NCBI GenBank assembly: GCA_017554385.1
Contig: JAFZIL010000067.1
Coordinates: forward strand, 1 to 55,933
Origin: Prevotella sp.
Lineage (GTDB): Bacteria; Bacteroidota; Bacteroidia; Bacteroidales; Bacteroidaceae
Direction: 5' to 3'
Length of the DNA stretch: 55,933 nt
Below the pieces are notes generated by a model, which was not told the DNA's origin, did no database searches, and was given only the letters and a program-made list of their open reading frames with translations. Positions 1,933 to 52,777 of the stretch are shown one piece after another. Position 1 is the first letter of the stretch. The number at the start of each line of letters is the position of its first letter. A program made the translations under genes and the position numbers.

Positions 1933-1968
1933 TTTTTATTCTTAACTCTTAATTCTTTACTCTTCATT
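1933..1968 (-). repeat. 7-bp tandem repeat at the dxr/rseP junction
   Basis: On the minus strand the units read AATGAAG, AGTAAAG, AATTAAG, AGTTAAG, AATAAAA and then the rseP ATG. The first units encode the last residues of Dxr (NEE) and its stop codon. The tract therefore runs from the stop of one gene to the start of the next. Confidence 0.7.
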
Positions 1969-3123
1969 AAGTAGCTCCGTTGCAATTCTTCTTGCCTCGG
2001 CATCGGTGGCCACGTAGTCATCGTAGGACGGCGACTTGACAAACGTGGTTCGCTCCATGGTCTCGGCTATGATGTCACCCATCTGCAGGAAGCGACAGCG
2101 GTCCTCGAGAAAGGCACGGTTCACAATCTCGTTGGCCGCATTGACGATACACGGCATATTACCCCCCCGGCGTATGGCCTCGTATGCCATGGCCAGGCAG
2201 CGGAACTTCTTAAGGTCGGGCTCGAAGAAGTCCAGGTGCTGGGCAGCAAACAGGTCGAGTCGCTTGCCGCTGAGCGATAGCCTCTGGGGGAACGAGAAGG
2301 CATACTGTATGGGCAGGCGCATGTCGGGCACGCCAAGCTGGGCCTTCACCGAGCCGTCCACAAACTGAACGGCACTGTGGACGATGCTCTGCGGGTGTAC
2401 CAGCACCTGTATCTGATCAGCCTCGACACCGAAGAGCCATTTCGCCTCGATCACCTCGAAACCCTTGTTCATCATCGAAGCCGAGTCGATGGTAATCTTC
2501 GCACCCATGTCCCATGTGGGATGGCGCAGGGCGTCGGCCTTGGTCACATGGGCAATCTCCTCCAACGACTTCGTGCGGAACGGGCCGCCCGATGCCGTCA
2601 GCAAGATCTTGTCGATCTCGTTCTCATCCTCGCCCACAAGGCTCTGGAAGATAGCCGAGTGCTCACTGTCAACAGGCAGGATGCTGGATCGGTATTCCTG
2701 CGACAGCTGACAGATAAGCTCGCCCGCCACGACGAGCGTCTCTTTGTTGGCCAGTGCAATGTTCTTGCGAGCCTTGATGGCATGGATAGTAGGCGAAAGT
2801 CCCGCAAAGCCCACCATGGCGGTGAGCACGATGTCGATAGGGTCGGCCTCGACGATTTCGTCAAGAGCCTTTGCTCCGGCATAGACCTTCACGTCGGGCA
2901 GATCCTGCATGAGGCTGCGCAGCTCATCGAGTCGCTGTTCATTAGCAATGACCACGGCAGCAGGATGATGCTTATGGGCCTGTTCGGCCAACAGTTCCAC
3001 CTTGTTGTTCGCTGTAAGGCAGTACACTTCATACAGGTCACTATGTTCCTCAATCACTTCGAGGGCCTGCGTTCCTATACTTCCAGTGGAACCGAGAATG
3101 GCTATTTGCTTTTTCCTTTTCAC
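1957..3123 (-). CDS. dxr: 1-deoxy-D-xylulose-5-phosphate reductoisomerase
   Basis: This enzyme makes 2-C-methyl-D-erythritol 4-phosphate with NADPH, the committed step of the MEP isoprenoid pathway, in the cytoplasm. The N-terminal Rossmann motif is AILGSTGSIGTQAL. Also visible are the conserved NKETLVVAGELI, LPVDSEHSAIFQ, SGGPFRT, HPTWDMGAKITIDSASMMNK and VHPQSIVHSAV motifs that hold the metal and substrate. The 388 residues match the usual family length. It sits between rimM (21 bp upstream) and rseP (24 bp downstream), the order known from Bacteroidales. The last three residues and the stop codon lie within a 7-bp repeat tract. Confidence 0.97.
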   Translation of the reverse strand: MKRKKQIAILGSTGSIGTQALEVIEEHSDLYEVYCLTANNKVELLAEQAHKHHPAAVVIANEQRLDELRSLMQDLPDVKVYAGAKALDEIVEADPIDIVLTAMVGFAGLSPTIHAIKARKNIALANKETLVVAGELICQLSQEYRSSILPVDSEHSAIFQSLVGEDENEIDKILLTASGGPFRTKSLEEIAHVTKADALRHPTWDMGAKITIDSASMMNKGFEVIEAKWLFGVEADQIQVLVHPQSIVHSAVQFVDGSVKAQLGVPDMRLPIQYAFSFPQRLSLSGKRLDLFAAQHLDFFEPDLKKFRCLAMAYEAIRRGGNMPCIVNAANEIVNRAFLEDRCRFLQMGDIIAETMERTTFVKSPSYDDYVATDAEARRIATELLNEE

Positions 3124-3144
3124 TATTCTTACTATTTATCTGTT

Positions 3145-3654
3145 TCACAATTCCAGCAAGCCTTCGGGCAAACGCATACTGATCTGGCGTTTGTCCTTGT
3201 CTATCTGGCTGATGAACTCGTCGGCAGCAGGAATCAGGCGCCCGTCGCTCAGCTCGAAGAGAATGTTGGCAGTACTGTCGTCGATATCGGCAATGCTGCC
3301 AACGACGGCACCTGTCTGTGCATCTACAATGCTGAAGCCCACCAGCACTGCTAACGAGATTACTTCGCTGTCATCGTCGGTCAGTGCCAACGGAAAGTAG
3401 ACGTCGCAGTTGGTCAGCTCACGGGCCCGTTCCTGTGTGTCCACGTCCTCGAACTTCACCAAGGCGGTCGAGTCGCTACGGAAACGGTATTCCTCTATGA
3501 AGAAGGGGACAAGGATGCCGTCGACATCAAGCACGAGGTAGTCGGCATCTACGCGGTCGAACACGTCGTCATCGAACATGAACGACACTTCGCCCTTCAC
3601 GCCGTGCGCCTTACCCAGACGGCCTATCTTATAGACTTCTTCTTTTCTTATCAT
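3145..3654 (-). CDS. rimM: Ribosome maturation factor RimM
   Basis: RimM binds ribosomal protein S19 and helps mature the 30S head. The N-terminal RimM domain is shown by YKIGRLGKAHGVKGEVSF; the C-terminal half has the PRC-barrel features LVGFSIVDAQTGAVVGSI and GRLIPAADEFI. The length of 169 residues is normal. The start codon follows a degenerate 9-bp repeat that fills the gap after murA. It is the middle gene of the murA-rimM-dxr-rseP run. Family assignment is secure. Confidence 0.94.
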   Translation of the reverse strand: MIRKEEVYKIGRLGKAHGVKGEVSFMFDDDVFDRVDADYLVLDVDGILVPFFIEEYRFRSDSTALVKFEDVDTQERARELTNCDVYFPLALTDDDSEVISLAVLVGFSIVDAQTGAVVGSIADIDDSTANILFELSDGRLIPAADEFISQIDKDKRQISMRLPEGLLEL

Positions 3655-3714
3655 TCATTTTTGGGGTTTAGGGCCAATTGGGCTCATGGGCCTCATGGAA
3701 CCAATAGACCTTAT
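3655..3714 (-). repeat. 9-bp tandem repeat at the murA/rimM junction
   Basis: Minus-strand units include CCCATAAGG, TCTATTGGT, TCCATGAGG and CCCAATTGG. The murA stop codon TAA lies inside the first unit and the rimM start follows the last. It belongs to the same C-C-C-A-A-T-T/A-G-G family as the tracts at 9490-9522 and 48780-48812. Confidence 0.65.
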
Positions 3715-5045
3715 GGGACGCGCTTGATGCAGGCACCCAGTGCGTTCAGTCTATCTTCTATGTGCTCGTAACCGCGGTCTATCTGCTCAATATTGTCGAT
3801 ACGGCTGGTGCCACGTGCACTCATAGCTGCAATGAGCAGGGCAATGCCCGCACGGATATCGGGGCTCGACATACGTCCGGCGCGGAGTTGCAACTTTCGG
3901 TCGTGCCCCACGACAACGGCACGATGCGGGTCACAGAGGATAATCTGTGCGCCCATGTCGATGAGCTTGTCGACAAAGAACAGTCGGCTCTCGAACATCT
4001 TCTGGTGAATGAGCACTGAGCCCCGGGCCTGTGTGGCCACGGTAATAAGCACCGACAGCAGGTCGGGTGTGAGTCCCGGCCACGGCGCGTCGGCCAGGGT
4101 CATAATGGTTCCGTCGATAAACGACTGCACCTCGTAATGGCGCTGATGTGGAATTACAATGTCGTCGCCCTCTACCTTGATCTTGACGCCCAAACGGCGG
4201 AAAGCATCGGGAATGCAGCCGAGATTCTTCAGCGACACATCCTTGATACGCACGCCTTCGCCTACCATAGCAGCCATGCCGATGAACGATCCCACCTCAA
4301 TCATGTCGGGCAGTATACGGTGCTCGGCACCGTGCAATTCCGTGACACCTTCGATGGTCAGGAGGTTCGACGCGATGCCACTGATGCGGGCACCCATGTT
4401 GTTGAGCAGATGACAGAGCTGCTGCACGTATGGCTCGCAGGCTGCATTATAGATAGTAGTTGTGCCGCGTGCCATGACAGCGGCCATGATGATATTAGCC
4501 GTACCAGTGACACTGGCCTCGTCGAGGAGCATGTAGGTGCCCTTGAGGGTGGAGGGTGAGGAGTGGAGGGTAGAGGGGCATGCGCTGATCTCATAGACAT
4601 CGCGGCCCTCGACGTGGTTGAAGCGTGCGCCCAACTTCTCGAAGCCCAGGAAGTGGGTGTCCAGGCGTCGGCGTCCAATCTTGTCGCCGCCCGGCTTCGT
4701 CACGATAGCCTTGCCCATGCGGGCCAGCAGCGGACCGATCATCAGCACCGAACCACGCAGCTGGGCACACTTGTGCACAAACTCGTCGCTCTCTAAGTAG
4801 TCCAGACGCAGTTCGTCGGCCTGGAACGAATAGTCGTTGGCCGACAGTCTTTCCACCTTCACACCCACGTCGCGCAGCAACTGTATGAGGTTCTGCACGT
4901 CGCGAATGTCAGGAATATTGCGCAAAGTGACCTTCTCCGAGGTGAGTAGCGAGGCACAGATGACCTCCAGGGCCTCGTTTTTCGCACCCTGCGGCCTGAT
5001 GATGCCACTCAGCAGGTGTCCACCTTCGATAATGAATGCAGCCAT
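3711..5045 (-). CDS. murA: UDP-N-acetylglucosamine 1-carboxyvinyltransferase (Asp-type active site)
   Basis: MurA transfers enolpyruvate from PEP to UDP-GlcNAc, the first committed step of peptidoglycan synthesis. I start it at MAAFIIEGGHLLSG, 10 bp after the upstream stop; a longer reading to 5093 would overlap that gene with a basic, non-conserved extension. The PQGAKNEALE motif (residues 19-28) and the catalytic loop KPGGDKIGRRRLD are clear. The loop residue that is Cys115 in E. coli is Asp121 here, as in the fosfomycin-insensitive enzymes of Mycobacterium and Chlamydia. About 10 residues (around 156-166, CPSTLHSSPST) look inserted between YEISA and LKGTYMLLDEASVTGTANI. They are encoded by a 7-bp repeat. 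Length is 444 residues against about 420 usual. Confidence 0.95.
   Translation of the reverse strand: MAAFIIEGGHLLSGIIRPQGAKNEALEVICASLLTSEKVTLRNIPDIRDVQNLIQLLRDVGVKVERLSANDYSFQADELRLDYLESDEFVHKCAQLRGSVLMIGPLLARMGKAIVTKPGGDKIGRRRLDTHFLGFEKLGARFNHVEGRDVYEISACPSTLHSSPSTLKGTYMLLDEASVTGTANIIMAAVMARGTTTIYNAACEPYVQQLCHLLNNMGARISGIASNLLTIEGVTELHGAEHRILPDMIEVGSFIGMAAMVGEGVRIKDVSLKNLGCIPDAFRRLGVKIKVEGDDIVIPHQRHYEVQSFIDGTIMTLADAPWPGLTPDLLSVLITVATQARGSVLIHQKMFESRLFFVDKLIDMGAQIILCDPHRAVVVGHDRKLQLRAGRMSSPDIRAGIALLIAAMSARGTSRIDNIEQIDRGYEHIEDRLNALGACIKRVP
4543..4580 (-). repeat. 7-bp tandem repeat inside murA coding sequence
   Basis: The minus-strand units are of the form CTACCCT, CCACTCC, TCACCCT, CCACCCT. 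This is the same CCACCCT family that fills the mreC/mreD gap at 52733-52777. Here the tract adds roughly ten residues to MurA while keeping the frame. Confidence 0.6.
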
Positions 5046-5055
5046 ATCAGTACGA

Positions 5056-5661: not shown

Positions 5662-5673
5662 TTTCTTCTTTGA

Positions 5674-5766
5674 AGGAAGTTAGGGGAAGTTAGAGGGAGT
5701 TAGGGGAAGTTAGGAGAAGTTAGGAGAAGTTAGGGGGAGTTAGGGGGAGTTAGGAGACATTAGAGA
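5674..5766 (-). repeat. 10-bp tandem repeat at the tsaB/DUF4290 junction
   Basis: Eight or nine degenerate 10-bp units of the form GGAAGTTAGG (plus-strand reading) fill the whole gap. On the coding strand they begin at the tsaB stop codon and end just before the DUF4290 start region. A short relative of the unit occurs at 29770-29787 on the other strand. Confidence 0.75.
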
Positions 5767-8335: not shown

Positions 8336-9505
8336 ATGAAGCCAATGCAAAGATTTGGTTTTCTGTTGTGCATCCTACTTATGTTGGTTGCCTGTCGCGA
8401 AGACGAAGACGTGGTACAGCCCACTGTCAGCGACGTAGGTAAGGATGCCGTCACCGACTATCGAGGCATGTACGTGCTCTGCGAGGGCAACATGGGCTCG
8501 AACAAGGCCACACTTGACTATCTGGACCTGCACACGGGTCAGTACTGGAAGAACATTTTCCCTTCACGTAATCCACAGCAGGTCATGGAGTTAGGTGACG
8601 TAGGCAACGACGCGCAGATTTACGGTTCACGGTTGTGGCTCGTCATCAACTGCTCGAACAAGGTCGAGGTATGTACCGCCGACTCGGCCCGTTCATTAGG
8701 CCATGTCGATGTACCCAACTGCCGCTACTTAGCTTTCGACGGAGGCTACGCCTACGTGTCGAGCTATGTTGGCGAGGTGGGGCAAAACTCTGTTTTAGGT
8801 AGCGTCTACAAGATCGACACGCTCTCCCTGAAGGTGGTGGGGCGCTGCACGGTGGGCTACCAGCCCGACGAACTCTGCGTGCTCGACGGCAAGCTCTACG
8901 TCTGCAACAGCGGTGGTTACCAGCCGCTCATGTCACCACCACAGGACTACGACTGTACGGTGAGCCAGATCGACCTGGCTACATTCCGTGAGGAGCGCAA
9001 AATCACGGTGGCCCCGAACCTGTTCCGCATCCAGGCCGACAGCCACGGACAGCTCTGGGTGACGAGCCGCGGCATTGACGACGACGAACAACCCATACCT
9101 TCGCGCCTCTACATGCTGGCCAAGGATGCTGCGGGACAGATGCAGGTTAGGGACTCCGTCGACCGCATCGTGTCCGACTTCGACATCGTGGGCGACACAC
9201 TCTATTTCTGTGGTTCCTCCATCAACGGTTCGAAGATGCTGCGCCACTACGGTGCCGTAGACACAAGGACGGCACAGGTAATCACCGACAGCCTGCTCAG
9301 CGAGGACGGCACGTGGAAGGTGCAGACACCATACGGCATCAAGGTACACCCACAGACGCGCGACATCTATCTGATGGATGCCACGAACTATGTATCCTCC
9401 GGCTATCTGCTCTGCTTCTCGCGCGACGGTCGCTTAAAGTGGAAGACATCTACCGGCGACATTCCCGGCCACGTTTGCTTTCTGAAGACCCCATTAACCC
9501 AATAG
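8336..9505 (+). CDS. BtuG-like cobalamin-binding surface lipoprotein (DUF5074/YncE-type propeller)
   Basis: A lipoprotein signal peptide ends in the lipobox LVAC (Cys20). The acidic DEDVV after the cysteine resembles surface-export signals of Bacteroidota lipoproteins. The rest looks like a seven-bladed beta-propeller, with repeated segments such as VSSYVGEVGQNSVLGSVYKIDT, CVLDGKLYVCNSGGYQP and GIKVHPQTRDIYLMDA. BtuG proteins of Bacteroides bind B12 very tightly at the cell surface and hand it to a BtuB transporter. The match to that family, plus the riboswitch directly upstream, supports the same role here. The last residues (PLTQ) and stop codon lie in a 9-bp repeat tract. No BtuB gene is in this operon within the window. 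Confidence 0.82.
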   Translation: MKPMQRFGFLLCILLMLVACREDEDVVQPTVSDVGKDAVTDYRGMYVLCEGNMGSNKATLDYLDLHTGQYWKNIFPSRNPQQVMELGDVGNDAQIYGSRLWLVINCSNKVEVCTADSARSLGHVDVPNCRYLAFDGGYAYVSSYVGEVGQNSVLGSVYKIDTLSLKVVGRCTVGYQPDELCVLDGKLYVCNSGGYQPLMSPPQDYDCTVSQIDLATFREERKITVAPNLFRIQADSHGQLWVTSRGIDDDEQPIPSRLYMLAKDAAGQMQVRDSVDRIVSDFDIVGDTLYFCGSSINGSKMLRHYGAVDTRTAQVITDSLLSEDGTWKVQTPYGIKVHPQTRDIYLMDATNYVSSGYLLCFSRDGRLKWKTSTGDIPGHVCFLKTPLTQ

Positions 9506-9522
9506 GCCCAATTAGCCCCATA
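9490..9522 (+). repeat. 9-bp tandem repeat after the BtuG-like gene
   Basis: Units run ATTAACCCA, ATAGGCCCA, ATTAGCCCC. A copy with one mismatch in 33 bp lies at 48780-48812 on the minus strand, after lpxH. In both places the tract spans the stop codon or directly follows it. Confidence 0.72.
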
Positions 9523-23600: not shown

Positions 23601-24009
23601 CAAGAGCAGCTATTCCGACCTCTACGCTATGCCTAAGGAGTTCAAGAACCGTTGGATGGTGCCCGGTGACGAACTGAAGACCACCGTGCCCGTCATCCTT
23701 ACCAAGCGACAGGTGGAGGAAGACCCCAACATGAACATCCTCTACAATGCCTATAACAGCTCTTCTGAGCGTGTAGCCAAGGGCGACTTCATCCGTATGA
23801 AAGAGATGTCGCTGTCCTACGACTTCCCGAAGGCATGGCTCAAACCGCTGAAGGTCAGCGATCTCTCGCTGAAGATCCAAGCCACCAACCTCTTCCTCAT
23901 CTACTCCGACAAGAAATTGAACGGTCAGGATCCTGAGTTCGTCAACGCCGGTGGTGTGGCTACACCCATACCCAAGCAGTACACCCTTACCTTACGACTA
24001 GGGATTTGA
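20680..24009 (+). CDS. SusC/RagA-family TonB-linked outer-membrane transporter
   Basis: 1109 residues. After a signal peptide (MFRVKCLLTALFFALLAAAQ) comes a carboxypeptidase-regulatory-like domain (GTILDENGEPLIGASLKLK). Then follow the TonB box region IEEVVITGMQK, the plug (SLEGRAAGVSVQNVSGTFG, IRVRGATSIYGNSKPLWVID, DIESFDILKDGSATSIYGAR) and a long beta-barrel ending in TLTLRLGI. These are hallmark SusC motifs. It imports a ligand across the outer membrane together with the SusD partner that follows. The substrate is not evident: no glycoside hydrolase is in the operon. The metallohydrolase and DUF4302 neighbours are typical of SusC loci that are not classic polysaccharide loci. Confidence 0.95.
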   Translation: MFRVKCLLTALFFALLAAAQTNTGDISGTILDENGEPLIGASLKLKMNGQGTVTDINGHFRLSASARGDVVTITYIGYEPLQIAVDRLAQTKTVRLQPDRRQIEEVVITGMQKMDKRLFTGATTKIKAEEAKIDGMADISRSLEGRAAGVSVQNVSGTFGTAPKIRVRGATSIYGNSKPLWVIDGVIMEDVTDVSADDLSSGDAETLISSAVAGLNADDIESFDILKDGSATSIYGARAMSGVIVVTTKKGRAGKTRVGYTGEYTLRMRPRYSDYNIMNSQEQMDVYQEMLGKGWFNFADSYRAANSGVFGKMYQLTNDYDAASGTFALPNNEEARNAYLREAEYRNTDWFKELFSNSIQQNHSVSVSGGTDDISFYGSLSAMYDPGRYRQNKVERYTANMNTSIKMSKQLTLNLISNGYYRKQCEPGTLSQSVDVVDGEVKRDFDINPFSFALNSSRTMDADEYYTRNYAPFNIKNELDNNYIDLNEISMKFQSELKWKPLRTLELSALASITYLTSTREHQIKDESNQAEAYRAMGDAVVRQNNPWLYHNPDDPYALPVSILPEGGIYVKKDNKMTSTDFRFTASWNDVFADTHIVNLFGGIEAGAINRQMNSFDGIGLQYNKGEMPFYSYEFFKKTVEENADYYSISKTRGRSAAFFVNGTYSYQGKYIVNGTYRYEGNNRLGPSRQARWLPTWNVSAAWNAHEEKFFETLKPLLSHLSLKASYSLTADPGPLWVSNATIVMKNYKPYRPFTNIKETGLKIEDIANEELTYEKKHELNLGLSAGFLDNRINVEFDWFRRDNFDLIGPCYVTGVGGSIRKWANVADMKSNGLELSISTKNIRKKDFSWETNFIFTHVTTEVTSLEAEADINDMVRGNGFTRVGYPHRALFSFQFEGLDNHGLPQILNQDGVVVNEGATINFQSQNLDNLVYEGPTEPTTYGSLGNIFKYKGFRLNVFVTYSYGNVVRLYPSFKSSYSDLYAMPKEFKNRWMVPGDELKTTVPVILTKRQVEEDPNMNILYNAYNSSSERVAKGDFIRMKEMSLSYDFPKAWLKPLKVSDLSLKIQATNLFLIYSDKKLNGQDPEFVNAGGVATPIPKQYTLTLRLGI

Positions 24010-24035
24010 GAATTGAGAATTGAGAATTGAGAATT
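24008..24035 (+). repeat. Four perfect 7-bp repeats between susC and susD
   Basis: GAGAATT occurs four times without mismatch. It overlaps the TGA stop of susC at one end and abuts the ATG of susD at the other. The unit number therefore sets the stop-to-start distance. Confidence 0.9.
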
Positions 24036-25655
24036 ATGATTAGACTGAATAGAAAACTGCTTTGGGGGTTTGTCTGTTGCTGCATTACAGCAGCAACAAG
24101 TTGCGACAACTACCTTGACGTGCTGCCCGATGACAGGGCCGAGCTCAATTCTGAGGCTAATATCACGGAGTTGCTCACCAACGCATACCCGTTGACCAGC
24201 TACTTCATGGTAGCCGAGCTATACAGCGACAATACCGACCATTGCATCGGCAGCAAGAGCTATACCGCTTTTAATAATAGCGGAACGACCCTCCATGAAG
24301 AGGCCTCCAACTGGCAGGACATCCACGACAAGAACCAGGACAGTCCATACGCTATCTGGGAGAGCTGCTACAAGAGCATTGCCGCTGCCAACAACGTGCT
24401 CATCGCCATTGACAAGCTGGGCAACCCCGACCGTCTCAAGGCCCAACGTGGTGAGGCGTTGCTCTGTCGTGCCTATTGCCACTTCATCTTAGGCAACATC
24501 TTCTGCATGCCCTATAGCACGAAGACCTGCAACGAGGCTTTGGGCGTTACCTACATGCGTTCGGCCGAGACCTCGGTGTCGCCTGTCTACAGCCGTGGCA
24601 CGATGGCCGAGCTCTACCATAACATCGCTGTTGACATCGAGGAGGGCTTGCCACTTATCGACGACAACCTCTACAAGGTTCCCAAGTACCATTTCAACAA
24701 GAAGGCCGCGCAGGCGTTTGCCGCACGTTTCTTCCTGTATTACATGCAGGACGACAAGTCGAACCTCGACAAGGCCATCGCCTATGCCACACAGGCACTC
24801 ACCGCGTCGCCAACCGACATGATGCGCGACTGGAAGGCTTTGGGCAATCTGTCGGCAGGCAGTGCACAATACAACGCGTTCATCGATGCCAGCCAGAAGG
24901 CCAATCTGCTGATTGTCAGTGCCAACTCCTACTGGACCTGGATCTACGGCCCTACAGCAGTGGCCAAAGGCTATTGCCATTGTACCCGTATCTCCGATGC
25001 CGAGACCATCAACAGCACCGGTTTCTGGGGCACGAAGGAGAAGGTCTATATGAAGGCCACTCAGGTCAGCGGTTCACCCAAGATCACCTTCTACAAGATG
25101 GGACAGTATGTGGAATATACCGACATTGTCAACGGCAAGGGCTATCCCAAGATGATTGTGCCGGCCTTCACCACCGATGCGCTCATCCTCGACCGTGCCG
25201 AGGCCTACGCCCTCAAGGGCGACTATGCCAACGCCTATCAAGACCTCACTGTGTGGATGAACGCCTTCACCTCTAATGCAGGCACTGTCACTCCTGCCCA
25301 GTTGGAGACCACCTACGGTAGTACGAAGCCTTATTATACGCCTACTGCACCCACACCCAAGAAGCAACTCAACCCCGACTTCACCGTCAGTGCCGGTGAG
25401 CAGGAGAACCTGATCCAAGCTGTGCTCCACGCCCGTCGCGTCACCACGCTCCACGAGGGGCTACGCTGGTTCGACGTGAAGCGCTACGGCATTGAGATCT
25501 ACCGCCGCAATGTCGACGGTACGTTAGGTGACGGTAACATTAGTGTCTACGACACCATGACGAAGGACGACCCACGCCGCGCCATCCAGCTCCCGCCATA
25601 CGTTATAAACGCCGGCATTGAGGCTAACCCGAGGGAAGGGAAAAGTGAAGAGTGA
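24036..25655 (+). CDS. SusD/RagB-family nutrient-binding lipoprotein
   Basis: The start is ATG at 24036 directly after the GAGAATT repeats. The signal peptide ends in the lipobox ATSC (Cys23), followed by DNYLDVLPDDRAEL, a typical SusD N-terminus. TPR-like helical segments (ALLCRAYCHFILGNIFCMPY, KAAQAFAARFFLYYMQDD, DRAEAYALKGDYANAYQDL) and RRVTTLHEGLRWFDVKRYG identify the family. It forms the lid over the SusC barrel on the cell surface and binds the ligand. The C-terminus is odd: the last residues GKSEE and the stop codon come from a 7-bp repeat tract, so the natural end (after about IEANPR) may have been altered. Confidence 0.95.
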   Translation: MIRLNRKLLWGFVCCCITAATSCDNYLDVLPDDRAELNSEANITELLTNAYPLTSYFMVAELYSDNTDHCIGSKSYTAFNNSGTTLHEEASNWQDIHDKNQDSPYAIWESCYKSIAAANNVLIAIDKLGNPDRLKAQRGEALLCRAYCHFILGNIFCMPYSTKTCNEALGVTYMRSAETSVSPVYSRGTMAELYHNIAVDIEEGLPLIDDNLYKVPKYHFNKKAAQAFAARFFLYYMQDDKSNLDKAIAYATQALTASPTDMMRDWKALGNLSAGSAQYNAFIDASQKANLLIVSANSYWTWIYGPTAVAKGYCHCTRISDAETINSTGFWGTKEKVYMKATQVSGSPKITFYKMGQYVEYTDIVNGKGYPKMIVPAFTTDALILDRAEAYALKGDYANAYQDLTVWMNAFTSNAGTVTPAQLETTYGSTKPYYTPTAPTPKKQLNPDFTVSAGEQENLIQAVLHARRVTTLHEGLRWFDVKRYGIEIYRRNVDGTLGDGNISVYDTMTKDDPRRAIQLPPYVINAGIEANPREGKSEE

Positions 25656-25734
25656 AGAGTGAAAAGTGAAGAGTGAAAAGTGAAGAGTGAAAAGTGAAGA
25701 GTGAAAAGGGAAAAGTGAAGAGTGAAGAGAGAAT
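25644..25734 (+). repeat. Thirteen 7-bp repeats after susD
   Basis: Units are AGTGAAG or AGTGAAA, with AGGGAAA and AGAGAAT near the end. The tract begins inside the susD coding end. Its complement, TCTTCAC, is repeated four times 115 bp downstream inside the next gene's signal peptide. The sequence that follows (AATTTGCTTCCGC) recurs after the related tract at 26750-26777. Confidence 0.92.
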
Positions 25735-25775
25735 AATTTGCTTCCGCGATAGGTAGATTTGTTAAAGATTCAATT

Positions 25776-26750
25776 ATGAGTGATATAATAATGAACAAAG
25801 GGAAACGAAGCCTGAAGGTGATGATGAAGGGACTATGCTGCATAGTATTCTTCACGCTTCACTCTTCACTCTTCACTTCCTGTGCCGAGGACGATCTCGA
25901 TGCCACCAGCGTCATCAAGGACTCTACCCAGCCCAAGACCGCTTTCGACAAATGGTTGGACACACACTTTGTCCAGCCCTATAACATCGACCTGAAGTAC
26001 CGGCTCAATGACTACGAGACCGACTTTACCTATACGCTGGCACCTGCCGACATCGACAACTCCGTCAAGTTGGCACACATCGTGCTACACACCTGGCTTC
26101 AGGCCTACGACGAGGTGGCAGGCATGGATTTTACGCGGAGAATGGCACCTAAGGTCATCCAGTTCGTGGGCTCCGTGGCCTGGCAGACCGACAACAGTGC
26201 TATCATGGGACAGGCTGAGGACGGCATGAAGGTGACGTTCTTCGGCGTCAACCGTTTAGAGCTGTCGCGCTCCTTCCTCAACGACAACTATTTCCAGTCT
26301 ATGCACCATGAGTTCACCCACATCCTGGCACAGAGCAAGAACTTCGACACCGACTTCCAGCGTATATCCGAAGGACAGTACGAACCTGCCGACTGGTACT
26401 CTTCCGGCCGTACCGAGACTTACGCCCTCCAAAAAGGCTTCCTCTCCAACTATGCCATGAGCGAGTACAACGAGGACTTTGCCGAGACGCTGGCCTTCTA
26501 CCTTATCTACACCCCCGAGGAGTGGGACGCGAAAATGGCCATAGCCGACAATGTGGGCGATGACGAAGCGAAGGAGAAAGCCCTGAAGGCAGGTACCAAC
26601 GGCTCGGCCATCATCGGGCGTAAGCTCGCTATGGTGCGCAGCTACATGCGGTCAGCCTGGGACATCGACATCGACCAACTCCGCTCTGTCGTGCAGCGTC
26701 GCATGGACGAGGTGGTTACTGGCAAGGTGGAATTGGAAAAACAGGATTAA
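25776..26750 (+). CDS. Substrate-import-associated zinc metallohydrolase lipoprotein
   Basis: The 324-residue protein has the zinc motif HEFTHI (H178, E179, H182, counting from 25776) preceded by QSMH. This matches the lipoprotein family with HExxH that is found next to SusC/SusD pairs (TIGR04549, as I recall). It probably sits on the outer surface and cleaves peptide or similar bonds in the imported ligand; the third zinc ligand may lie in the following EGQYEPADWY stretch. The signal peptide ends in the lipobox LFTSC (Cys36), and its hydrophobic core is encoded by a 7-bp repeat. The start could also be the Met at 25791 or 25821; the nearer ones give a more usual signal-peptide length. Confidence 0.85.
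   Translation: MSDIIMNKGKRSLKVMMKGLCCIVFFTLHSSLFTSCAEDDLDATSVIKDSTQPKTAFDKWLDTHFVQPYNIDLKYRLNDYETDFTYTLAPADIDNSVKLAHIVLHTWLQAYDEVAGMDFTRRMAPKVIQFVGSVAWQTDNSAIMGQAEDGMKVTFFGVNRLELSRSFLNDNYFQSMHHEFTHILAQSKNFDTDFQRISEGQYEPADWYSSGRTETYALQKGFLSNYAMSEYNEDFAETLAFYLIYTPEEWDAKMAIADNVGDDEAKEKALKAGTNGSAIIGRKLAMVRSYMRSAWDIDIDQLRSVVQRRMDEVVTGKVELEKQD
25849..25876 (+). repeat. Four 7-bp repeats in a lipoprotein signal peptide
   Basis: TCTTCAC, GCTTCAC, TCTTCAC, TCTTCAC encode FFTLHSSLFT just before the lipobox cysteine. They are the exact complement of the GTGAAGA-type tract upstream (25644-25734). Gain or loss of one unit would shift the reading frame. Confidence 0.85.
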
Positions 26751-26777
26751 GTGAAAAGTGAAAAGTGAAGAGTGAAG
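26750..26777 (+). repeat. Four 7-bp repeats before the DUF4302 gene
   Basis: AGTGAAA, AGTGAAA, AGTGAAG, AGTGAAG start at the last base of the stop codon of the metallohydrolase gene. The following AATTTGCTACCGC matches the sequence after the 25644-25734 tract, which points to a duplicated junction module. Confidence 0.85.
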
Positions 26778-26841
26778 AATTTGCTACCGCTATGAATATA
26801 AAGAACCAGAATATGAAGCGAAGATTGGGAATGACGATGAA

Positions 26842-28164
26842 GTGGCTGTGCGCAGCATTCTTCATTCTTCATTCTTCATTTCATCCTGCACCCCCGAGGT
26901 GGAGAACGTCTTTGGCGAGACGGCCTCCCATCGTGTGGCCCAGCAGCTGAGCGACTATTACGCCATACTCGAATCGCAGCCCCAGGGATGGGTGCTCGAC
27001 TTCTACCCCTCCGACCGCATCGAGGGTGGAGTAGTCTATACCGCATGCTTCAAAGATGGTATGGTCACCATGGCCTGCGAACAGGACATCAACAATACCG
27101 ACATCTCAAAGAAGTTCACCAAAGGCACCGAAATGACCTCGGCCTACCAGATTGTCAGCGAGACGGGTGTCCTGCTCACCTTCGACACCTACAACCCGCT
27201 GTTCCACTACTGGTCGCAACCGTTCAAAGGCCACGCCAAGGGCTACGAGAGCGACTATGAGTTCACGTTTATCTCGGCATCTTCTGACTCTGTGGTGCTT
27301 CGTGGCAAGCGCTACGGCAACATGCTCCGCATGTATCCCCTGCCGCAGGCTGCTACCGACTACGTGAAGAAGGTGGCCGACATGCGCAGCGTGCTCACAC
27401 CCATCACCCGCAAGCGGGCTACCGTCGACGGCACCACCTATCCTGTCACGATGGCCTACAGCCTCTTCAGCTACGACCCTTCGACAGGCTCAGGGCAAGG
27501 CACTTCGACAGGCTCAGGGCAACGGTGCTCCATGCCCTTCGTCCATACTCCTGACGGCATCCGGTTCTACGAGCCGGTGACCCTTGGCGGCGTCAGCGTC
27601 AGCCAACTCACCTTCGACAGCGACAGCCAGGAACTTCGTTCTGCCGACGGTCGTTTCGTGCTGCCAAAGCCCACCACTATCGAACAGTCGTTCGTGGCTC
27701 CACAGACCCAGTGGCTCTTCTCCTACAAGGCCTCTTCGGGCACGCCCTCCGACATGTGCGACGAGCTGCTCTCCATCGTGACGCACTGTGCCAATGTCAT
27801 CAACAACGGATCGTGGGGCGAGAAGGTGCGTGAGCTCTACCTCGGTGCCAACATGGAGTCGTTTGCCAACGACCGCCACCGCTGGGTGTTAGGGTGGCAC
27901 ACCCGTCTCAGTGGTGCCATCGACTTCTACGTGGGCTATGCTGTCGACATGAATGTGGTCGATGCCGGGCGCCAGCTCGTCAGCATCCAGATGGTCGAGC
28001 CTGCCAACCTCTTCTCGAACTACGGCTACTGGCAACCCTTCGTCGACTTCGTGGGCAAAAACAGTCCCTACCTACTTTCCTTCGACAACGACGATGCCCC
28101 AAAGACCGTCACCCTCACCAGTGAGCGCGACGCCACGAAGTGGTTCAAGCTAAAGAAAAAGTAG
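26842..28164 (+). CDS. DUF4302 lipoprotein, signal peptide disrupted by a 7-bp repeat
   Basis: The body (SHRVAQQLSDYYAILESQPQ, GWVLDFYPSD, TFDTYNPLFHYWS) matches DUF4302, a lipoprotein family encoded beside SusC/SusD systems. As sequenced, the open frame needs a GTG start at 26842 and yields a short leader with the lipobox FISSC (Cys16). A much better signal peptide, MKRRLGMTMKWLCAAFFILH, starts at ATG 26813 but is in another frame and stops at 26950. The frame change lies in three ATTCTTC units at 26857-26877; a fourth unit would join the two parts exactly. This may be a natural off or low state, a sequencing error or true decay. Around residues 213-228 two STGSGQ units are inserted. The family's role is not known beyond import. 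Confidence 0.78.
   Translation: MAVRSILHSSFFISSCTPEVENVFGETASHRVAQQLSDYYAILESQPQGWVLDFYPSDRIEGGVVYTACFKDGMVTMACEQDINNTDISKKFTKGTEMTSAYQIVSETGVLLTFDTYNPLFHYWSQPFKGHAKGYESDYEFTFISASSDSVVLRGKRYGNMLRMYPLPQAATDYVKKVADMRSVLTPITRKRATVDGTTYPVTMAYSLFSYDPSTGSGQGTSTGSGQRCSMPFVHTPDGIRFYEPVTLGGVSVSQLTFDSDSQELRSADGRFVLPKPTTIEQSFVAPQTQWLFSYKASSGTPSDMCDELLSIVTHCANVINNGSWGEKVRELYLGANMESFANDRHRWVLGWHTRLSGAIDFYVGYAVDMNVVDAGRQLVSIQMVEPANLFSNYGYWQPFVDFVGKNSPYLLSFDNDDAPKTVTLTSERDATKWFKLKKK
26857..26877 (+). repeat. Three 7-bp repeats that set the reading frame of the DUF4302 signal peptide
   Basis: ATTCTTC occurs three times, followed by a partial ATTTC. With four units the ATG at 26813 would read through AAFFILHSSFFISSC into the mature protein. 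Confidence 0.85.
27479..27522 (+). repeat. Two copies of a CTTCGACAGGCTCAGGGCAA element inside DUF4302 gene
   Basis: Two identical 20-bp copies lie 24 bp apart (27479-27498 and 27503-27522) and add STGSGQ-type residues in frame. A very similar sequence is familiar as a dispersed repeat in many unrelated bacterial genomes. Confidence 0.8.
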
Positions 28165-28168
28165 CTCC

Positions 28169-28227
28169 CACACTCCTACACTCCAACATTTGTCCACACT
28201 CCTACACTCCCACACTCCTACACTCCT
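28169..28227 (+). repeat. 8-bp tandem repeat after the DUF4302 gene
   Basis: Units are ACTCCTAC or ACTCCCAC, interrupted by ACATTTGTCC. The reverse complement of this same pattern, including the ACAAATG part, lies at 45583-45622. Confidence 0.8.
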
Positions 28228-28259
28228 AAAAAAAATACTCATTAAAAATACCAACGACT

Positions 28260-29792: not shown

Positions 29793-29901
29793 GATAAAAA
29801 AATAACTTGGTACAAATAATTAATGGAACACGAAGATACGAAGATACGAAGTTTTTCGTTCTCGTGAAATAATCTTCCTTTCTTCGTTTCTTCGTGTTTA
29901 G
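29793..29901 (+). repeat. Dispersed repeat, copy A
   Basis: It starts GATAAAAAAATAACTTGGTA and contains ACGAAGATACGAAGATACGAAG facing CTTCCTTTCTTCGTTTCTTC, which pair to form a hairpin. Copies B (33875-34016) and C (43529-43668) are nearly identical over this stretch and have the same orientation. Copy A lacks the last 35 bp that B and C share. Confidence 0.9.
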
Positions 29902-33887: not shown

Positions 33888-34016
33888 CTTGGTACAAATA
33901 ATTAATGAAACACGAAGATACGAAGATACGAAGTTTTTCGTTCTCGTGAAATAATCTTCCTTTCTTCGTTTCTTCGTGTTTAGTTAAAATCATACCCACT
34001 TATTTTATACGATTAC
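33875..34016 (+). repeat. Dispersed repeat, copy B
   Basis: Same element as 29793-29901, with hairpin arms at 33909-33933 and 33956-33980. It extends through GTTTAGTTAAAATCATACCC to CGATTAC, an extension shared with copy C. It provides the stop codon of the DUF4276 gene. Confidence 0.9.
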
Positions 34017-39986: not shown

Positions 39987-40410
39987 CTTTGTATATCGGC
40001 ATTTCAGCGCATTTCAACTATACACAAACTCTACATAAACTATACACTAACCCTACACTATCTATACACTAACTATACATGGAAGAGGGCAAGAGGCGAC
40101 AAGTATACTGTTTGGTGTCACTAAGTATGTTGTTTAGCATCATCAAACATGCTGTTTTCGACATCAAGGAAGTATACTTGAGAATGCAAGGAAGTATTCC
40201 TGAGAACGCAAGGAAGTATTCCTGAGACCCACGAGAACTATTCTCGCTTGCCTCGAGAACTATTCTCGTTGAAATCATGTAGAGATAGTGTAGAGATAGT
40301 GTAGAGTTAGTGTAGAGTTTGTGTAGAGATAATGTAGAGTTTATGTAGAGTTTATGTAGGGTTGAAAACATTCAGATTACCTCTGTTTATCGATATTTCA
40401 GCGAATTTTA
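39987..40410. repeat. Phased 11/22-bp repeat and palindrome array flanked by direct repeats
   Basis: This gene-free stretch lies between convergent genes. From 40021 to about 40086 there are 11-bp units (TACACTAACTA type). From 40108 to 40283 there are eight abutting 22-bp units, and from 40284 to about 40360 more 11-bp units (GTGTAGAGTTA type), which are complementary to the left ones. Five hyphenated palindromes (for example CAAGGAAGTATTCCTG, CGAGAACTATTCTCG) are centred on successive 22-bp joints near 40173, 40195, 40217, 40239 and 40261. An imperfect direct repeat (GTATATCGGCATTTCAGCGC at 39991 and GTTTATCGATATTTCAGCGA at 40385) borders the array. Confidence 0.85.
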
Positions 40411-42162: not shown

Positions 42163-42199
42163 TGTTATTGGTAACTGTTTATTGTTTATCGTTTATCGT
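42163..42199 (-). repeat. 7-bp tandem repeat between the CarboxypepD-reg gene and the kinase gene
   Basis: Minus-strand units ACGATAA, ACGATAA, ACAATAA, ACAGTTA run through the last codons (TINDKQ) and stop of the upstream gene, up to the kinase start. Confidence 0.75.
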
Positions 42200-43528: not shown

Positions 43529-43668
43529 GATAAAAAATAACCTGGTACAAATAAATAATGGAACACGAAGATACGAAGATACGAAGTTTTTCGTTCTCGC
43601 CAAATAATCTTCCTTTCTTCGTTTCTTCGTGTTTAGTTAAAATCATACCCACTTATTTATACGATTAC
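43529..43668 (+). repeat. Dispersed repeat, copy C
   Basis: Same element as copies A and B, complete with the GTTTAGTTAAAATCATACCC extension to CGATTAC. It lies in the 400-bp divergent gap 43445-43844, upstream of both the minus-strand gene and the Na/Pi gene. The remainder of that gap holds the two promoters and a small inverted repeat around AACGGAGGCTCCGTT (43697). Confidence 0.9.
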
Positions 43669-45582: not shown

Positions 45583-45622
45583 GGAGTGCAGGAGTTCAGG
45601 AGTTCAGGAGTGTAGACAAATG
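45583..45622 (+). repeat. 8-bp tandem repeat between the Na/Pi and esterase genes
   Basis: GGAGTGCA, GGAGTTCA, GGAGTTCA, GGAGTGTA, then GACAAATG, whose ATG is the esterase start. It is the reverse complement of the family at 28169-28227, including the interrupting ACAAATG segment. Confidence 0.78.
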
Positions 45623-48761: not shown

Positions 48762-48779
48762 TTGACCTTGTGTGGTTAT

Positions 48780-48812
48780 TATGGGGCTAATTGGGCCTAT
48801 TGGGCTAATGGG
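48780..48812 (-). repeat. 9-bp tandem repeat after lpxH
   Basis: The minus-strand sequence matches the tract after the BtuG-like gene (9490-9522) at all but one of 33 positions. Confidence 0.75.
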
Positions 48813-48820
48813 ACTATAGG

Positions 48821-49585: not shown

Positions 49586-49586
49586 A

Positions 49587-49621
49587 GATGAGAGATGAGA
49601 GATGAAAGATGAGAGATATGA
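49587..49621 (-). repeat. 7-bp tandem repeat between the DUF59 gene and lpxH
   Basis: Plus-strand units GATGAGA, GATGAGA, GATGAAA, GATGAGA, GATATGA. The tract fills almost the whole gap between the DUF59 stop (49628) and the lpxH ATG (49585). Confidence 0.85.
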
Positions 49622-49627
49622 TTACAT

Positions 49628-49945: not shown

Positions 49946-49969
49946 TATCTGTTGTTCAGTTATGTGGTG

Positions 49970-50000
49970 CAAAGTTACGAAAAGTCGAGAGCAAAACAAA
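49970..50000 (-). promoter_or_regulatory. Promoter of the DUF59-lpxH operon
   Basis: Minus-strand TTTG (49997-50000), exactly 19 bp, then TAACTTTG (49970-49977). It is 25 bp upstream of the start at 49945, which supports that start choice. Confidence 0.72.
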
Positions 50001-50156
50001 GAAAATTGTTTCTTTTTTTGCCGAGACGGAGTAAGTTCGCCGATTTATCGGCAAAGTTATGAAAAAAAACTGAGATTAGGCTTGACCTTTAATAATTTTT
50101 TATCAACACCACTAAAATTATCGGTCATTGACAATGGTCAATTCTTAATTATTTTG

Positions 50157-50164
50157 TAACTTTG
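50157..50164 (+). promoter_or_regulatory. Putative -7 element of the purH-mre operon promoter
   Basis: TAACTTTG, 45 bp before the ATG at 50210. No TTTG was seen at the standard spacing. Confidence 0.5.
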
Positions 50165-50209
50165 CAGCCCTAATTGCATATAACGTTATATATTTTTCTA
50201 ATTTTAGGT

Positions 50210-50803
50210 ATGGCAGAGTTGAAGAAAATAAAGACAGCTCTTATTTCCGTGTTTCATAAAGACGGACTTGACGATTTGTTGCGCAAGCTCAACGAAGAGG
50301 GCGTGAAGTTCCTTTCTACGGGCGGTACGCAGAAGTTTATTGAAGAACAAGGTTACGCATGTCAGAAAGTGGAAGACGTAACCACCTATCCTTCCATCTT
50401 GGGCGGACGTGTAAAAACGCTCCATCCCAAAATATTCGGTGGCATCCTGGGCCGCCGCGACAACGAGGGCGACCGCGAACAGATGGCCCAGTACGAAATT
50501 CCCGAGATTGACCTCGTCATTGTCGACCTTTATCCTTTCGAACAAACCGTAGCAAGCGGAGCCTCAGAGGCCGATACCATCGAGAAGATTGATATTGGCG
50601 GCATCTCGCTGATCCGTGCCGGTGCCAAGAACTTCAAGGACGTGGTCATCGTTCCTTCGAAGGCCGAGTACAGCTTGCTTCTCGACATCATCAACAAGCA
50701 GGGTGCAGCAACTACTATTGAGCAGCGCAAGGCTTTTGCAGCCAAGGCATTCGGCGTGAGCTCTCACTACGACACAGCAATACACAACTGGTTTGCAAAA
50801 TAA
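50210..50803 (+). CDS. purH: IMP cyclohydrolase (stand-alone PurH N-terminal domain)
   Basis: 197 residues from MAELKKIKTALISVFHKDGL. The MGS-like fold closes FAICAR to IMP in the last step of purine synthesis. Visible are LLSTGGT-type FLSTGGTQKFIEEQG, TYPSILGGRVKTLHPKIFGG, VDLYPFEQTVA and IDIGGISLIRAGAKNFKDVV. Bifunctional PurH is about 500 residues and carries AICAR transformylase in its C-terminal part; here the reading frame ends cleanly after the first domain (IHNWFAK). The transformylase must be encoded elsewhere. It lies 35 bp before mreB, and I recall PurH preceding mreB in other Bacteroidales. Confidence 0.9.
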   Translation: MAELKKIKTALISVFHKDGLDDLLRKLNEEGVKFLSTGGTQKFIEEQGYACQKVEDVTTYPSILGGRVKTLHPKIFGGILGRRDNEGDREQMAQYEIPEIDLVIVDLYPFEQTVASGASEADTIEKIDIGGISLIRAGAKNFKDVVIVPSKAEYSLLLDIINKQGAATTIEQRKAFAAKAFGVSSHYDTAIHNWFAK

Positions 50804-50835
50804 ATTGTAAATTGTAAATCGTCAAATTGTAAATA
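50804..50835 (+). repeat. 7-bp tandem repeat between purH and mreB
   Basis: Units ATTGTAA, ATTGTAA, ATCGTCA, then ATTGTAA offset by one base. It starts directly after the purH stop codon and ends just before the mreB ATG. Confidence 0.8.
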
Positions 50836-50838
50836 AGA

Positions 50839-51861: not shown

Positions 51862-51870
51862 TACTTTTTC

Positions 51871-52731
51871 ATGCAGAACCTTTGGCAGTTCTTCACCCGT
51901 CATTTCCACTGGTTTCTCTTCCTACTACTGGAAGTGGCCAGTGGTGTGATGTTGTTCCAGTACAACAACTACCAAAGCAGCGTCTGGGTGTCGTCGGCCA
52001 ATCTGATGGCTGGAAAAGTCTATGAATTGCAGGCCAACATTGAGCAGTTCTTCTCTCTAACGAGGAACAACGAGGAACTGTCGTTGCGCAATTTCTATTT
52101 AGAGCGCCAGCTCGACCAGCTTCGTCGGCTTTACGCTGAAGAGACTGGCGACACCACGGCAGCCGAGCGAGCCGAACTTCAGGCACTCGCCCAGTACAAG
52201 CTTATCCCGGCGAAGGTCATATCGAGCACACTTGACCGCCCCGACAACATGATTACCATTGACAAAGGCAAAGTCGACGGTGTCAATCCCGACATGGGCG
52301 TAGCCTGTGGCGGAGGTGTGGTAGGAGTGGTCTATCAGGTTAGCGACCACTACGCGGTGGTCATCCCCGTGCTGAACAACAGCTCACGAATCAGCTGTGC
52401 CATTCGCGGACGCGGCTATTTCGGCTACCTCACATGGAAAGGCGGTGATCCTTCAATAGCCTATGTCGAAGACATTCCCCGACATGCAAAGTTCAAACGT
52501 GGGGAGTGGGTCGAGACCAGCGGCTACTCGAGCATCTTCCCTCACGGTATCTCCGTGGGGAAAATCTTGCAAGTCTACAATTCGCGCGACGGACTGAGCT
52601 ATCGGCTCAAGGTCCATCTGTCTACTGACTTTGGCTGTTTGCGCGATGTCTGTGTCATCAGCGACAGCGAGATTGGCGAGCGCCTGCGGCTACAGAACAT
52701 TGCTCGCGACTCGCTCAGCAAAACCCATTGA
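51871..52731 (+). CDS. mreC: Rod-shape-determining protein MreC
   Basis: 286 residues. One membrane helix near the N-terminus (FHWFLFLLLEVASGVMLF) is followed by a coiled coil (LTRNNEELSLRNFYLERQLD) and periplasmic beta domains (VDGVNPDMGVACGGGVVGVV, VETSGYSSIFPHGISVGKIL), as in MreC. It links MreB to the transpeptidase in the elongation complex. The motif FPHGISVGKI is typical. It lies between mreB and mreD; the gap to mreD is a 7-bp repeat. Confidence 0.94.
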   Translation: MQNLWQFFTRHFHWFLFLLLEVASGVMLFQYNNYQSSVWVSSANLMAGKVYELQANIEQFFSLTRNNEELSLRNFYLERQLDQLRRLYAEETGDTTAAERAELQALAQYKLIPAKVISSTLDRPDNMITIDKGKVDGVNPDMGVACGGGVVGVVYQVSDHYAVVIPVLNNSSRISCAIRGRGYFGYLTWKGGDPSIAYVEDIPRHAKFKRGEWVETSGYSSIFPHGISVGKILQVYNSRDGLSYRLKVHLSTDFGCLRDVCVISDSEIGERLRLQNIARDSLSKTH

Positions 52732-52732
52732 C

Positions 52733-52777
52733 CTCCACCATCCACCCTTCACCATCCACCATCCACCCTCCACCACT
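52733..52777 (+). repeat. 7-bp tandem repeat between mreC and mreD
   Basis: Units TCCACCA, TCCACCC, TTCACCA, TCCACCA, TCCACCC, TCCACCA. The tract fills the entire gap between the mreC stop and the mreD start. The CCACCCT unit recurs inside murA (4543-4580). Confidence 0.87.

Follow-up and report, generated by a model that had tools for sequence, protein, structure and literature searches.

Tandem tracts at gene junctions of a Prevotella contig, probable members of families of small dispersed repeat elements

The window analysed here, a stretch of 55,933 nucleotides of Prevotella sp. DNA (GenBank JAFZIL010000067.1), is contig C64 of a metagenome bin of 3.06 Mb in 98 contigs (81% complete). Many of its gene junctions, such as that between dxr and rseP, are occupied by short tandem tracts. 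A sequence-only reading of the window had noted these tracts, and had suggested that a genome-wide process creates or spreads them and that changes in unit number tune translational coupling. The tracts were followed in the window, in the rest of the source genome and in related genomes. They probably represent the part, lying between genes, of families of small dispersed repeat elements that belong to Prevotella in the wide sense.

Tandem tracts at the gene junctions of the window

Arrays of the window were called with Tandem Repeats Finder at a score of 30. Genes were called with a simple longest-ORF (open reading frame) caller, so gene starts in the sample are rough. Genome statistics were obtained from 674,297 bases including the window (22% of the 3.06 Mb), and results on the source-genome sample refer to this part. 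The relatives' set comprised 80 loci (1.30 Mb); loci L183-L222 are the samples of the single-contig genomes G345 and G117. Outside the genus group, the comparison was confined to 50 kb of Escherichia coli K-12. By Dxr protein, the nearest named relatives are rumen Prevotella and Xylanibacter genomes (Prevotellaceae). The gene at the dxr-rseP junction that we take to be Dxr has its name from the earlier reading, and one carrier of an in-gene tract is presumably CysS. The identity of MurA is backed by solved relatives and the remaining gene names come from Pfam.

An array was detected at all 14 junction positions of the earlier reading, those at 3655 and 9490 being weak. The period was 7 bp at 1940, 24006, 25640, 26749, 42165, 49586, 50801 and 52734, 8 bp at 28165 and 45583, 9 bp at 3679, 9489 and 48780, and 10 bp at 5675. 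All 14 tracts lie between codirectional ORFs, the last one on the assumption that the ATG at 52781 begins the gene downstream of it. On the minus strand, the 7-bp tract of the dxr-rseP junction (1938..1968; array at 1940) encodes the C-terminus of Dxr (NEE), and the orthologous junction was compared in 79 species. A degenerate 9-bp tract (3663..3719, minus strand; array at 3679, 2.4 copies, score 31), the weakest of those listed, separates the ORF 3145-3654 from murA. Inside murA lies a 7-bp tract that the earlier reading had missed (4544..4577, minus strand); it codes for the extra loop residues CPSTLHSSPST, and most orthologs are without it. The 10-bp tract (5675..5754, minus strand) has eight copies of the unit GGAAGTTAGG, and similar units occur at L089:2316, L112:18101 and L118:228. 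On the plus strand, a weak 9-bp tract (71% matches, score 32) occupies the junction at 9489..9518, and a 7-bp AATTGAG tract (24006..24035) runs from a stop codon into AATTATGATTA, which carries the next ATG.

The window contains two element-like matches, each of which brackets, by its two arms, the start codon of the next gene and extends over a putative signal peptide of that gene. At the first, a 7-bp AAGAGTG/AAAAGTG tract, in which the SusD-like gene terminates, forms the left arm (25640..25733, plus strand) and is immediately followed on its 3' side by the inner motif AATTTGCTTCCGC (25735..25747, plus strand). The right arm is a complementary 7-bp tract (25850..25877, plus strand) that codes for FFTLHSSLFTS near the N-terminus of the protein. 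The match to the covariance model R1 (25709..25875, E 2e-5) covers the junction and, in the Peptidase_Mx1 gene, the start codon and the putative signal peptide; its right inner motif is degenerate. The second match has as its left arm a 7-bp AAGTGAA tract in which the Peptidase_Mx1 ORF terminates (26749..26778, plus strand), then the inner motif AATTTGCTACCGC (26778..26790, plus strand) and, in the N-terminal codons of the DUF4302 gene, a roughly complementary 7-bp right arm (26856..26880, plus strand). The covariance model R1 matched from 26752 to 26883 (E 1.7e-8), over the junction and the N-terminal codons of the DUF4302 gene, again with a degenerate right inner motif.

The other junction tracts are simpler. 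Those of 8 bp have the units CTCCTACA (28165..28228) and GGAGTTCA (45583..45611), both on the plus strand. On the minus strand, a 7-bp tract (42165..42199) extends into the final codons of the upstream ORF, a 9-bp tract lies at 48780..48817, and a 7-bp tract (49586..49617) separates the FeS_assembly_P and Metallophos ORFs. Two 7-bp tracts on the plus strand have the units TAAATTG (50801..50834, between the ORF of the MGS/AICARFT N-part and mreB) and TCCACCA (52734..52775, between mreC and the ORF starting at 52781).

Abundance and placement of tracts in gaps and genes

Codirectional gaps of up to 600 nt were searched for tracts of period 3-20 with a score of at least 12, and expectations were obtained from dinucleotide shuffles. 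Locus L116, which has a run of N, was excluded from the deep-ORF, period 7-11, orientation, unit-identity and inner-motif-core counts (672 kb) and retained in the gap/ORF shuffle counts and in the unit-sharing comparison across loci. Edge tracts without two flanking genes were counted separately in the period 7-11 and orientation tallies. The enrichment of gaps was clear in this 22% of the genome: 41 tracts were found in 258 codirectional gaps (1.7 expected), nine in 60 convergent gaps (0 expected) and seven in 64 divergent gaps (0.5 expected). The tracts are not confined to gaps, since 40 were found in 250 of 486 ORFs and none in the shuffles. When periods were restricted to 7-11, the source sample gave 46 tracts for codirectional gaps and 62 for ORFs.

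The relatives' loci contained 277 tracts, against three in shuffles, and at least one tract of period 7-11 or a multiple was present in 64 of the 80. By period there were 89 tracts of 7 bp, 45 of 8, 40 of 9, two of 10, 13 of 11 and none of 4 or 5; in the source sample and the relatives' loci alike, 7 and 8 were the commonest periods and 3-6 were almost missing. The 50 kb of E. coli K-12 had no tract of period 7-11 and two tracts of periods 6 and 12. For periods 4-22, the density was 26.6 tracts/100 kb in the source genome versus 16.0 and 11.8 in the samples of two single-contig genus genomes. Short direct matches of period 22, which fall outside the 7-9 bp vocabulary and were left unreduced to period 11 by the counting script, numbered 12 and 13 in the G345 and G117 samples and 17 in the source sample.

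The claim that tracts run from one stop codon to the next start codon held for the two edges together and failed for each edge alone. Among the 46 codirectional-gap tracts, 23 started at the stop codon (20.7 under random placement) and 15 ended at the start codon (15.7), while 12 did both (5.9), a number equalled in one of 2000 simulations; 16 overlapped the upstream stop. Alignment of the tract edges to stop and start codons was rejected, each single edge being at the random expectation for tracts of about the length of the gap. A simpler reading of the link is that units recurrently carry stops and that one tract-end motif carries an ATG. A unit that holds a stop codon and whose period is not divisible by three shows that stop in every frame. 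Where the unit had a stop on one strand only, the stop strand was in sense in 18 codirectional-gap tracts and otherwise in six (p 0.02), and among the 62 ORF tracts the reading was stop-free in 39 and otherwise in six (p 5e-7). Of the 16 occurrences of a second end motif, [AT]TATGATTA[CT], eight follow heptamer tracts. The ATG of six of them opens an ORF of more than 500 codons, and these six are confined to two operon regions (L102, L104). In the same regions consecutive genes share the start TTATGATTACCAAGAA (MITKNIK), mostly behind a heptamer tract, which looks like copying of the start region along the operon. Pyrimidine arms code for N-terminal stretches such as FFTLHSSLFTSC, which by their sequence resemble signal peptides. 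A tract was present in the first 150 nt of 11 of 370 source genes versus nine in a mid-gene slice, so that by count there is no hot spot at signal peptides.

Deep in ORFs of at least 150 codons, 35 tracts were found in the source-genome sample. Ten proteins chosen from these sites were, by Pfam, the exonuclease VII large subunit, sigma-54, GcpE/IspG, an M20 peptidase, a glycosyltransferase, an outer-membrane efflux protein, GH97, a polysaccharide biosynthesis protein, a radical SAM protein and an AAA helicase. Orthologs, 24-29 per site, were compared at seven tract sites of six genes (MurA, CysS, IspG, sigma-54, XseA twice and the helicase). The tracts sit in loops, and the orthologs have at the same loop no tract or a different unit. 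The aligned stretch was longer than the ortholog median by nine residues in MurA, eight in sigma-54, 16 at XseA site 1 and six in IspG. A 7-bp tract is present at the CysS loop in 15 of the 29 orthologs, and at least five kinds of unit occur there. At the IspG loop, six of 24 orthologs reach the threshold, including AATTCTC (L345), AAAGTTC (L353) and a full palindrome (L362), and 9-bp CTAGTCTGA-like stretches were seen, by eye only, in L341, L344 and L360. One of 29 orthologs has another heptamer at the MurA loop (L149), a few others having non-periodic inserts, and one of 29 has a tract of another unit at XseA site 1. In the predicted MurA structure (mean predicted local distance difference test score, pLDDT, 81), the tract residues are placed between strands 166-171 and 187-189, and residues 174-179 have a pLDDT below 50; according to this model the insert is a low-confidence loop between two strands. 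At the tract-free orthologous positions of the seven sites, the tract's own unit, with one mismatch allowed, was not commoner than other units of the genome, which gives no hint of a local seed.

Orthologous junctions vary in whether they carry a tract, in its unit and in its number of copies. Of the dxr-rseP junctions of the 79 species, 24 have a tract (0.5 expected), made of many different units of period 7, 8 or 9. The distance between the two genes ranges from -7 to 288 nt, with a median of 94 with a tract and 30 without, which is evidence against tuned coupling; tract copies inside genes are useless for coupling there. The proposal that the tracts tune translational coupling found no support, and a coupling device was ruled out as their main role because distance, tract presence and unit vary between species at this junction. 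Junctions have an excess of tracts, as the earlier reading supposed; a particular tie of the tracts to junctions found no support, since tracts also sit in coding loops.

Thirty-eight tract comparisons were made between related loci whose flanks are 79-96% identical, some of the tracts being ordinary coding repeats. The counterpart was a tract of another unit in L059 versus L063 at 7115, L031 versus L033 and L014 versus L016, a short tract-free gap in L026 versus L002 and L020 versus L010, and a similar tract in L034 versus L044. Unit number also differed between species: CTTTAACTCCT has about seven copies in L059 and three in L063, with flanks 87-91% identical. This variation of unit number, presence and unit at orthologous sites upholds the idea of a genome-wide process that makes or spreads tracts. 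At L031:13824-13930, complementary heptamer arms flank a conserved core, which the relative L033 has without the arms.

The palindromic element and its families

Tracts of the AGTGAAG type tend to terminate in AATTTGCTNCCGC. The complete element, of about 100 bp, has the form [AGTGAAG]n-AATTTGCTNCCGC-loop-GCGGNAGCAAATT-[CTTCACT]n and is present in eight copies in genome G034. Many of the tracts make up arms or half-arms of such palindromes. The core TTTGCTNCCGC was found 14 times in the 672-kb source sample (1.4 expected), and 13 of these copies lie within 60 bp of a tract, in genes and gaps. The 13-bp inner motif has 58 copies in the source genome and occurs in 28 of 60 genus genomes, the source included; 16 of the 60 have at least five copies, with a maximum of 64, and the reversed pattern occurs 0 or 1 times per strand. 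A heptamer tract immediately precedes the motif in 22 of 33 distinct sites that were fetched, and the places of the motif include many inverted pairs tens of bases apart. Matching tracts of the same period were inverted in 31 of 37 pairs at 10-300 bp versus 30 of 76 beyond 2 kb (Fisher p 8e-6), six of the 31 being copies of one ACGAAGAT hairpin. In the source-genome sample half elements and bare tracts outnumber full palindromes.

Element candidates were listed after removal of the source-genome duplicates L001, L122, L152, L223, L253, L314 and L339. There were 24 candidates, of which the 14 with an arm identity of at least 16/25 were aligned. The alignment has a stem of 39 pairs with 91.9% of cells paired; 17 cells were changed on both sides, versus 7.2 in shuffled alignments (0/500). 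The arms occur in several units that covary around the constant inner motif. Folding z was -3.7 to -12.5 for four armed elements and +0.6 for a half element. A covariance model made from the alignment gave 11 places in the source sample at E <=0.01, two of them training copies; seven lie wholly within ORFs and two are in the window. In G345 and G117 it gave five places at E <1e-3, one of them a training copy, and in the 80 loci of relatives two at E <1e-4 and three weaker ones; there was no match in the 50-kb stretch of E. coli K-12. Four copies of G034 that lie in ORFs of 380-709 codons share one frame, SEE[LF]RVKSEEFA, in which L or F stands where four non-coding copies keep a stop codon. 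The xseA copy (TGTAGAG arms) and the helicase copy of the source genome, and L316 and L362 of other species, are read in a like manner.

Units recur at unlinked sites. For 7-bp units, 3.7% of pairs were identical within a genome and 1.8% between genomes (0.6% and 0.4% for letter-shuffled units), and for 8-bp units 8.8% and 1.2% (0.6% and 0.1%). Identity of 11-bp units was found in 2/22 pairs within and 0/250 between genomes, and of 9-bp units in only 1/76 within and 12/1874 between genomes, with none after letter shuffling in either case. The recurrent families include the 8-bp ACGAAGAT hairpins, of which the sample has six near-identical copies, and the 10-bp GGAAGTTAGG (four loci), and 9-bp and 11-bp families likewise recur. 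Beyond the genus the AGTGAAG/AAGTGAA family has a scattered distribution, with 14 carriers, source genome included, among 149 genomes of the order.

Some further features of the window belong beside these families. An 8-bp tract followed by its own reverse complement forms a short hairpin at 29830..29895, with further copies of this dispersed repeat at 33912..33977 and 43565..43630; the three are near-identical with conserved flanks, and more were found at L090:5056, L097:4461 and L111:55. An 11-bp tract and its reverse complement flank 22-bp repeats at 40016..40363, and a similar inverted pair was found at L097:11965-12407. The GC-rich inverted 11-mers GGGGAGGGGTT and CCCCACCCCTG lie at 55460-55533, and similar GC palindromes were seen by eye in XseA, IspG and helicase loops of other species (L255, L260, L278, L325, L352). 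The ORF 50174-50803, upstream of the tract at 50801, contains MGS and, of AICARFT, no more than the first 60 positions, and the C-part lies elsewhere in most of the genus genomes searched. Truncation of this gene by the tract was ruled out: the MGS/AICARFT N-part is a short ORF (199-233 codons) in 17 of 19 other genus genomes, and purH therefore seems to be split in the genus.

Origin of the tracts and comparison with known systems

Under the reading that we prefer, an element would consist of units of 7-11 bp repeated in tandem, either as a single tract or as two complementary arms that enclose an inner motif in a palindrome of about 100-130 bp. Copies would insert at new places, gaps and gene ends tolerating either strand and gene interiors only an open reading. 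After insertion, an arm could be lost, or the number and sequence of its units changed, by replication slippage. An arm at a gene end would supply the stop codon, since many units have a strand with a stop in every frame. The tract-end motif AATTATGATTACC and a pyrimidine arm may here and there have come to serve as start codon and as the core of a signal peptide. Most probably the element is selfish or neutral DNA that is tolerated, sometimes domesticated, and no coupling device.

Several results weigh against this. The related-locus pairs, which are too divergent to reveal a target-site duplication, included no insertion next to a near-identical empty counterpart; the best DNA pair is 90% identical, so movement of the elements is inferred. 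Eleven of the 33 motif sites are without a tract, and the single copies of motif-poor genomes are mostly tract-free and look like chance. Eight of the 14 aligned rows come from the single genome G034; stem pairs changed on both sides numbered nine versus 6.0 after shuffling (39/500), and stem pair types 19 versus 19.3 (336/500), neither being clearly above the shuffled value. Many 8-, 9- and 10-bp tracts have neither a partner arm nor the inner motif, and unit sharing between genomes could stem from a bias in which units can arise. The aligned stretch is no longer than in orthologs for CysS, XseA site 2 and the helicase right arm, and in xseA a heptamer tract (L096:8858-8889) stands in place of about 31 coding bases with the length unchanged relative to most orthologs; such unchanged length fits overwriting and slippage equally. 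The unit changes at the CysS site (CTCTCAA, TCAATGG, CCAACAG) could be evolution in place. In the small samples of G345 and G117 the orientation rule was not reproduced: G345 had seven stop-free tracts versus one in genes and five versus five in gaps, and G117 two versus four in genes, the opposite way, and three versus one in gaps. A REP-associated tyrosine transposase (RAYT, Y1), the transposase family that was examined, is not favoured as the mover, since motif and Y1 counts are weakly correlated (rho 0.26, p 0.04) and the palindromes of the Y1 gene itself differ. Genome G032 (97% complete) has 13 inner motifs and no Y1 match.

The tracts might instead be born locally, by polymerase slippage from a chance short duplication, with a period of about 7 favoured by the polymerase, shared units reflecting sequence bias, and gaps and loops merely tolerating the result. 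We regard this as unlikely for the families as a whole, although units of 7 bp are unusually frequent among the long-unit repeats of many bacteria and slippage has been put forward to account for this (MacGregor 2015; Rehm 2015; accessible parts of both). The variation of copy number between species and the tract sites without a change in length also speak for it. It leaves unexplained the constant 13-bp motif beside the tracts, the complementary arms within 300 bp and the single frame with stop-avoiding changes, and the unit was not enriched at tract-free orthologous sites. Slippage may still account for tracts without a motif or partner arm. Another proposal, that a dedicated copying process writes tandem arrays at new sites and uses hairpin-primed (snap-back) synthesis to copy the first arm into the second, seems to us doubtful. 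If the second arm were written from the first, one inner motif could carry arms of any unit. In its favour are the L031 core, which has arms that L033 lacks, and the fact that the arms still match and the frame is open both in elements of the AGTGAAG or TGTAGAG type and in model matches whose arms are of the AAATGAG type. If true, it would be a new way of building and spreading palindromes, in which the core stays constant while the tandem arms can be exchanged.

That the junction tracts are selected spacers, which tune coupling or insulate genes through three-frame stops and an unstructured leader, appears improbable. Sense-strand stops do prevail in the source codirectional gaps (18 versus 6, p 0.02), gap-filling tracts are in excess (12 versus 5.9), the half element is unstructured (z +0.6) and translational control has been proposed for TAACTGA repeats (MacGregor 2015, accessible part). 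However, presence, unit and length are not conserved at orthologous junctions, the identical kind of repeat lies inside genes, and start and end positions singly fit random placement. The sense bias may result from tolerance of stops at gene ends, and it is absent from G345 (5 versus 5). Misjoining or collapse of short repeats in the assembly can hardly be the cause. The bin is fragmented (98 contigs, 81% complete) and some tracts are at contig ends, but like tracts occur in named isolate records (e.g. L027) and in the single-contig genomes G345 and G117, within conserved gene order and open reading frames.

Repeats whose units differ between species, in loops of essential enzymes of an abundant gut and rumen genus, amount to a natural insertion scan of conserved proteins. 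They offer a testable case of selfish DNA in coding sequence, and of how such elements spread and are tolerated. The elements would account for odd predicted peptides (SSLFTLHSSL, EELRVKSEE), for look-alike starts and signal peptides of unrelated genes and for fast-diverging intercistronic gaps. With motif, arms and reading frame defined, the origin and spread of bacterial heptamer tracts become testable. Among the records listed by the literature search, which left most subscription journals uncovered, none dealt with such elements in Prevotella.

Among known repeats, the MITE (miniature inverted-repeat transposable element) BrickBuilt of Porphyromonas gingivalis is likewise from Bacteroidota and has tandem repeats within a small inverted-repeat element, with 19 copies in one strain. 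The complementary arms of the Prevotella elements are terminal inverted repeats of the kind that define MITEs. BrickBuilt differs in its 23-bp unit and in being always intergenic, and the accessible part of its description gives no complementary tandem arms. Transposed non-coding satellites of Leptospira and Methanocella are also tandem families spread over a genome; in the accessible part of the report they are rare and have long units, whereas the Prevotella units are of 7-11 bp (PMC6749651). Repetitive extragenic palindromes (REP) and their paired form (REPIN), with RAYT (Y1), are similar as short inverted pairs in many copies, and the source genome has a Y1 gene flanked by GTAG palindromes. 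They are unlike in that the palindromes of the Y1 gene differ in sequence and the motif-Y1 count correlation is weak. The inner motif has GGTAGC on one strand. At L097:2367-2930 (minus strand), a Y1 transposase-like gene has the palindrome GTAGGGGCAGGCC on both sides, like a REP pair with RAYT.

Heptamer repeats, namely TAACTGA, short tandemly repeated repetitive (STRR) sequences and LSSR, are known from Beggiatoaceae, Cyanobacteria and some Bacteroidetes; according to the accessible part of MacGregor (2015), many lie just 5' of start codons, 7-nt indels occur between strains, the forward strand, with a stop in every frame, overlaps the ends of genes, and the reverse strand occurs in ORFs. Like heptamer repeats of the TAACTGA and STRR type, the 7-bp units of Prevotella are in excess and denser in gaps than in genes. 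Compared with the one unit studied there, as far as that part goes, Prevotella has many units, periods 7-11, inverted pairs (31/37 near pairs) and an inner motif, and its tracts also lie in interior loops of core enzymes, where the unit varies from species to species. Rickettsia palindromic elements are palindromes of about 105-150 bp with a stable stem-loop, which occur both in gaps and, in frame and with a conserved peptide, within conserved protein genes (PMC2229807, PMC10969869, accessible parts). The Prevotella elements are likewise palindromic with a stable stem-loop, their size agrees with the range of about 105-150 bp, and their in-frame copies in conserved protein genes have a common peptide. 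They differ in a host of another phylum, in a stem of tandem heptamers, in arms of several unit families around a constant inner motif, and in half elements and bare tracts being commoner. By analogy, the Prevotella elements would work like Rickettsia palindromic elements joined with heptamer repeats, a likeness in behaviour.

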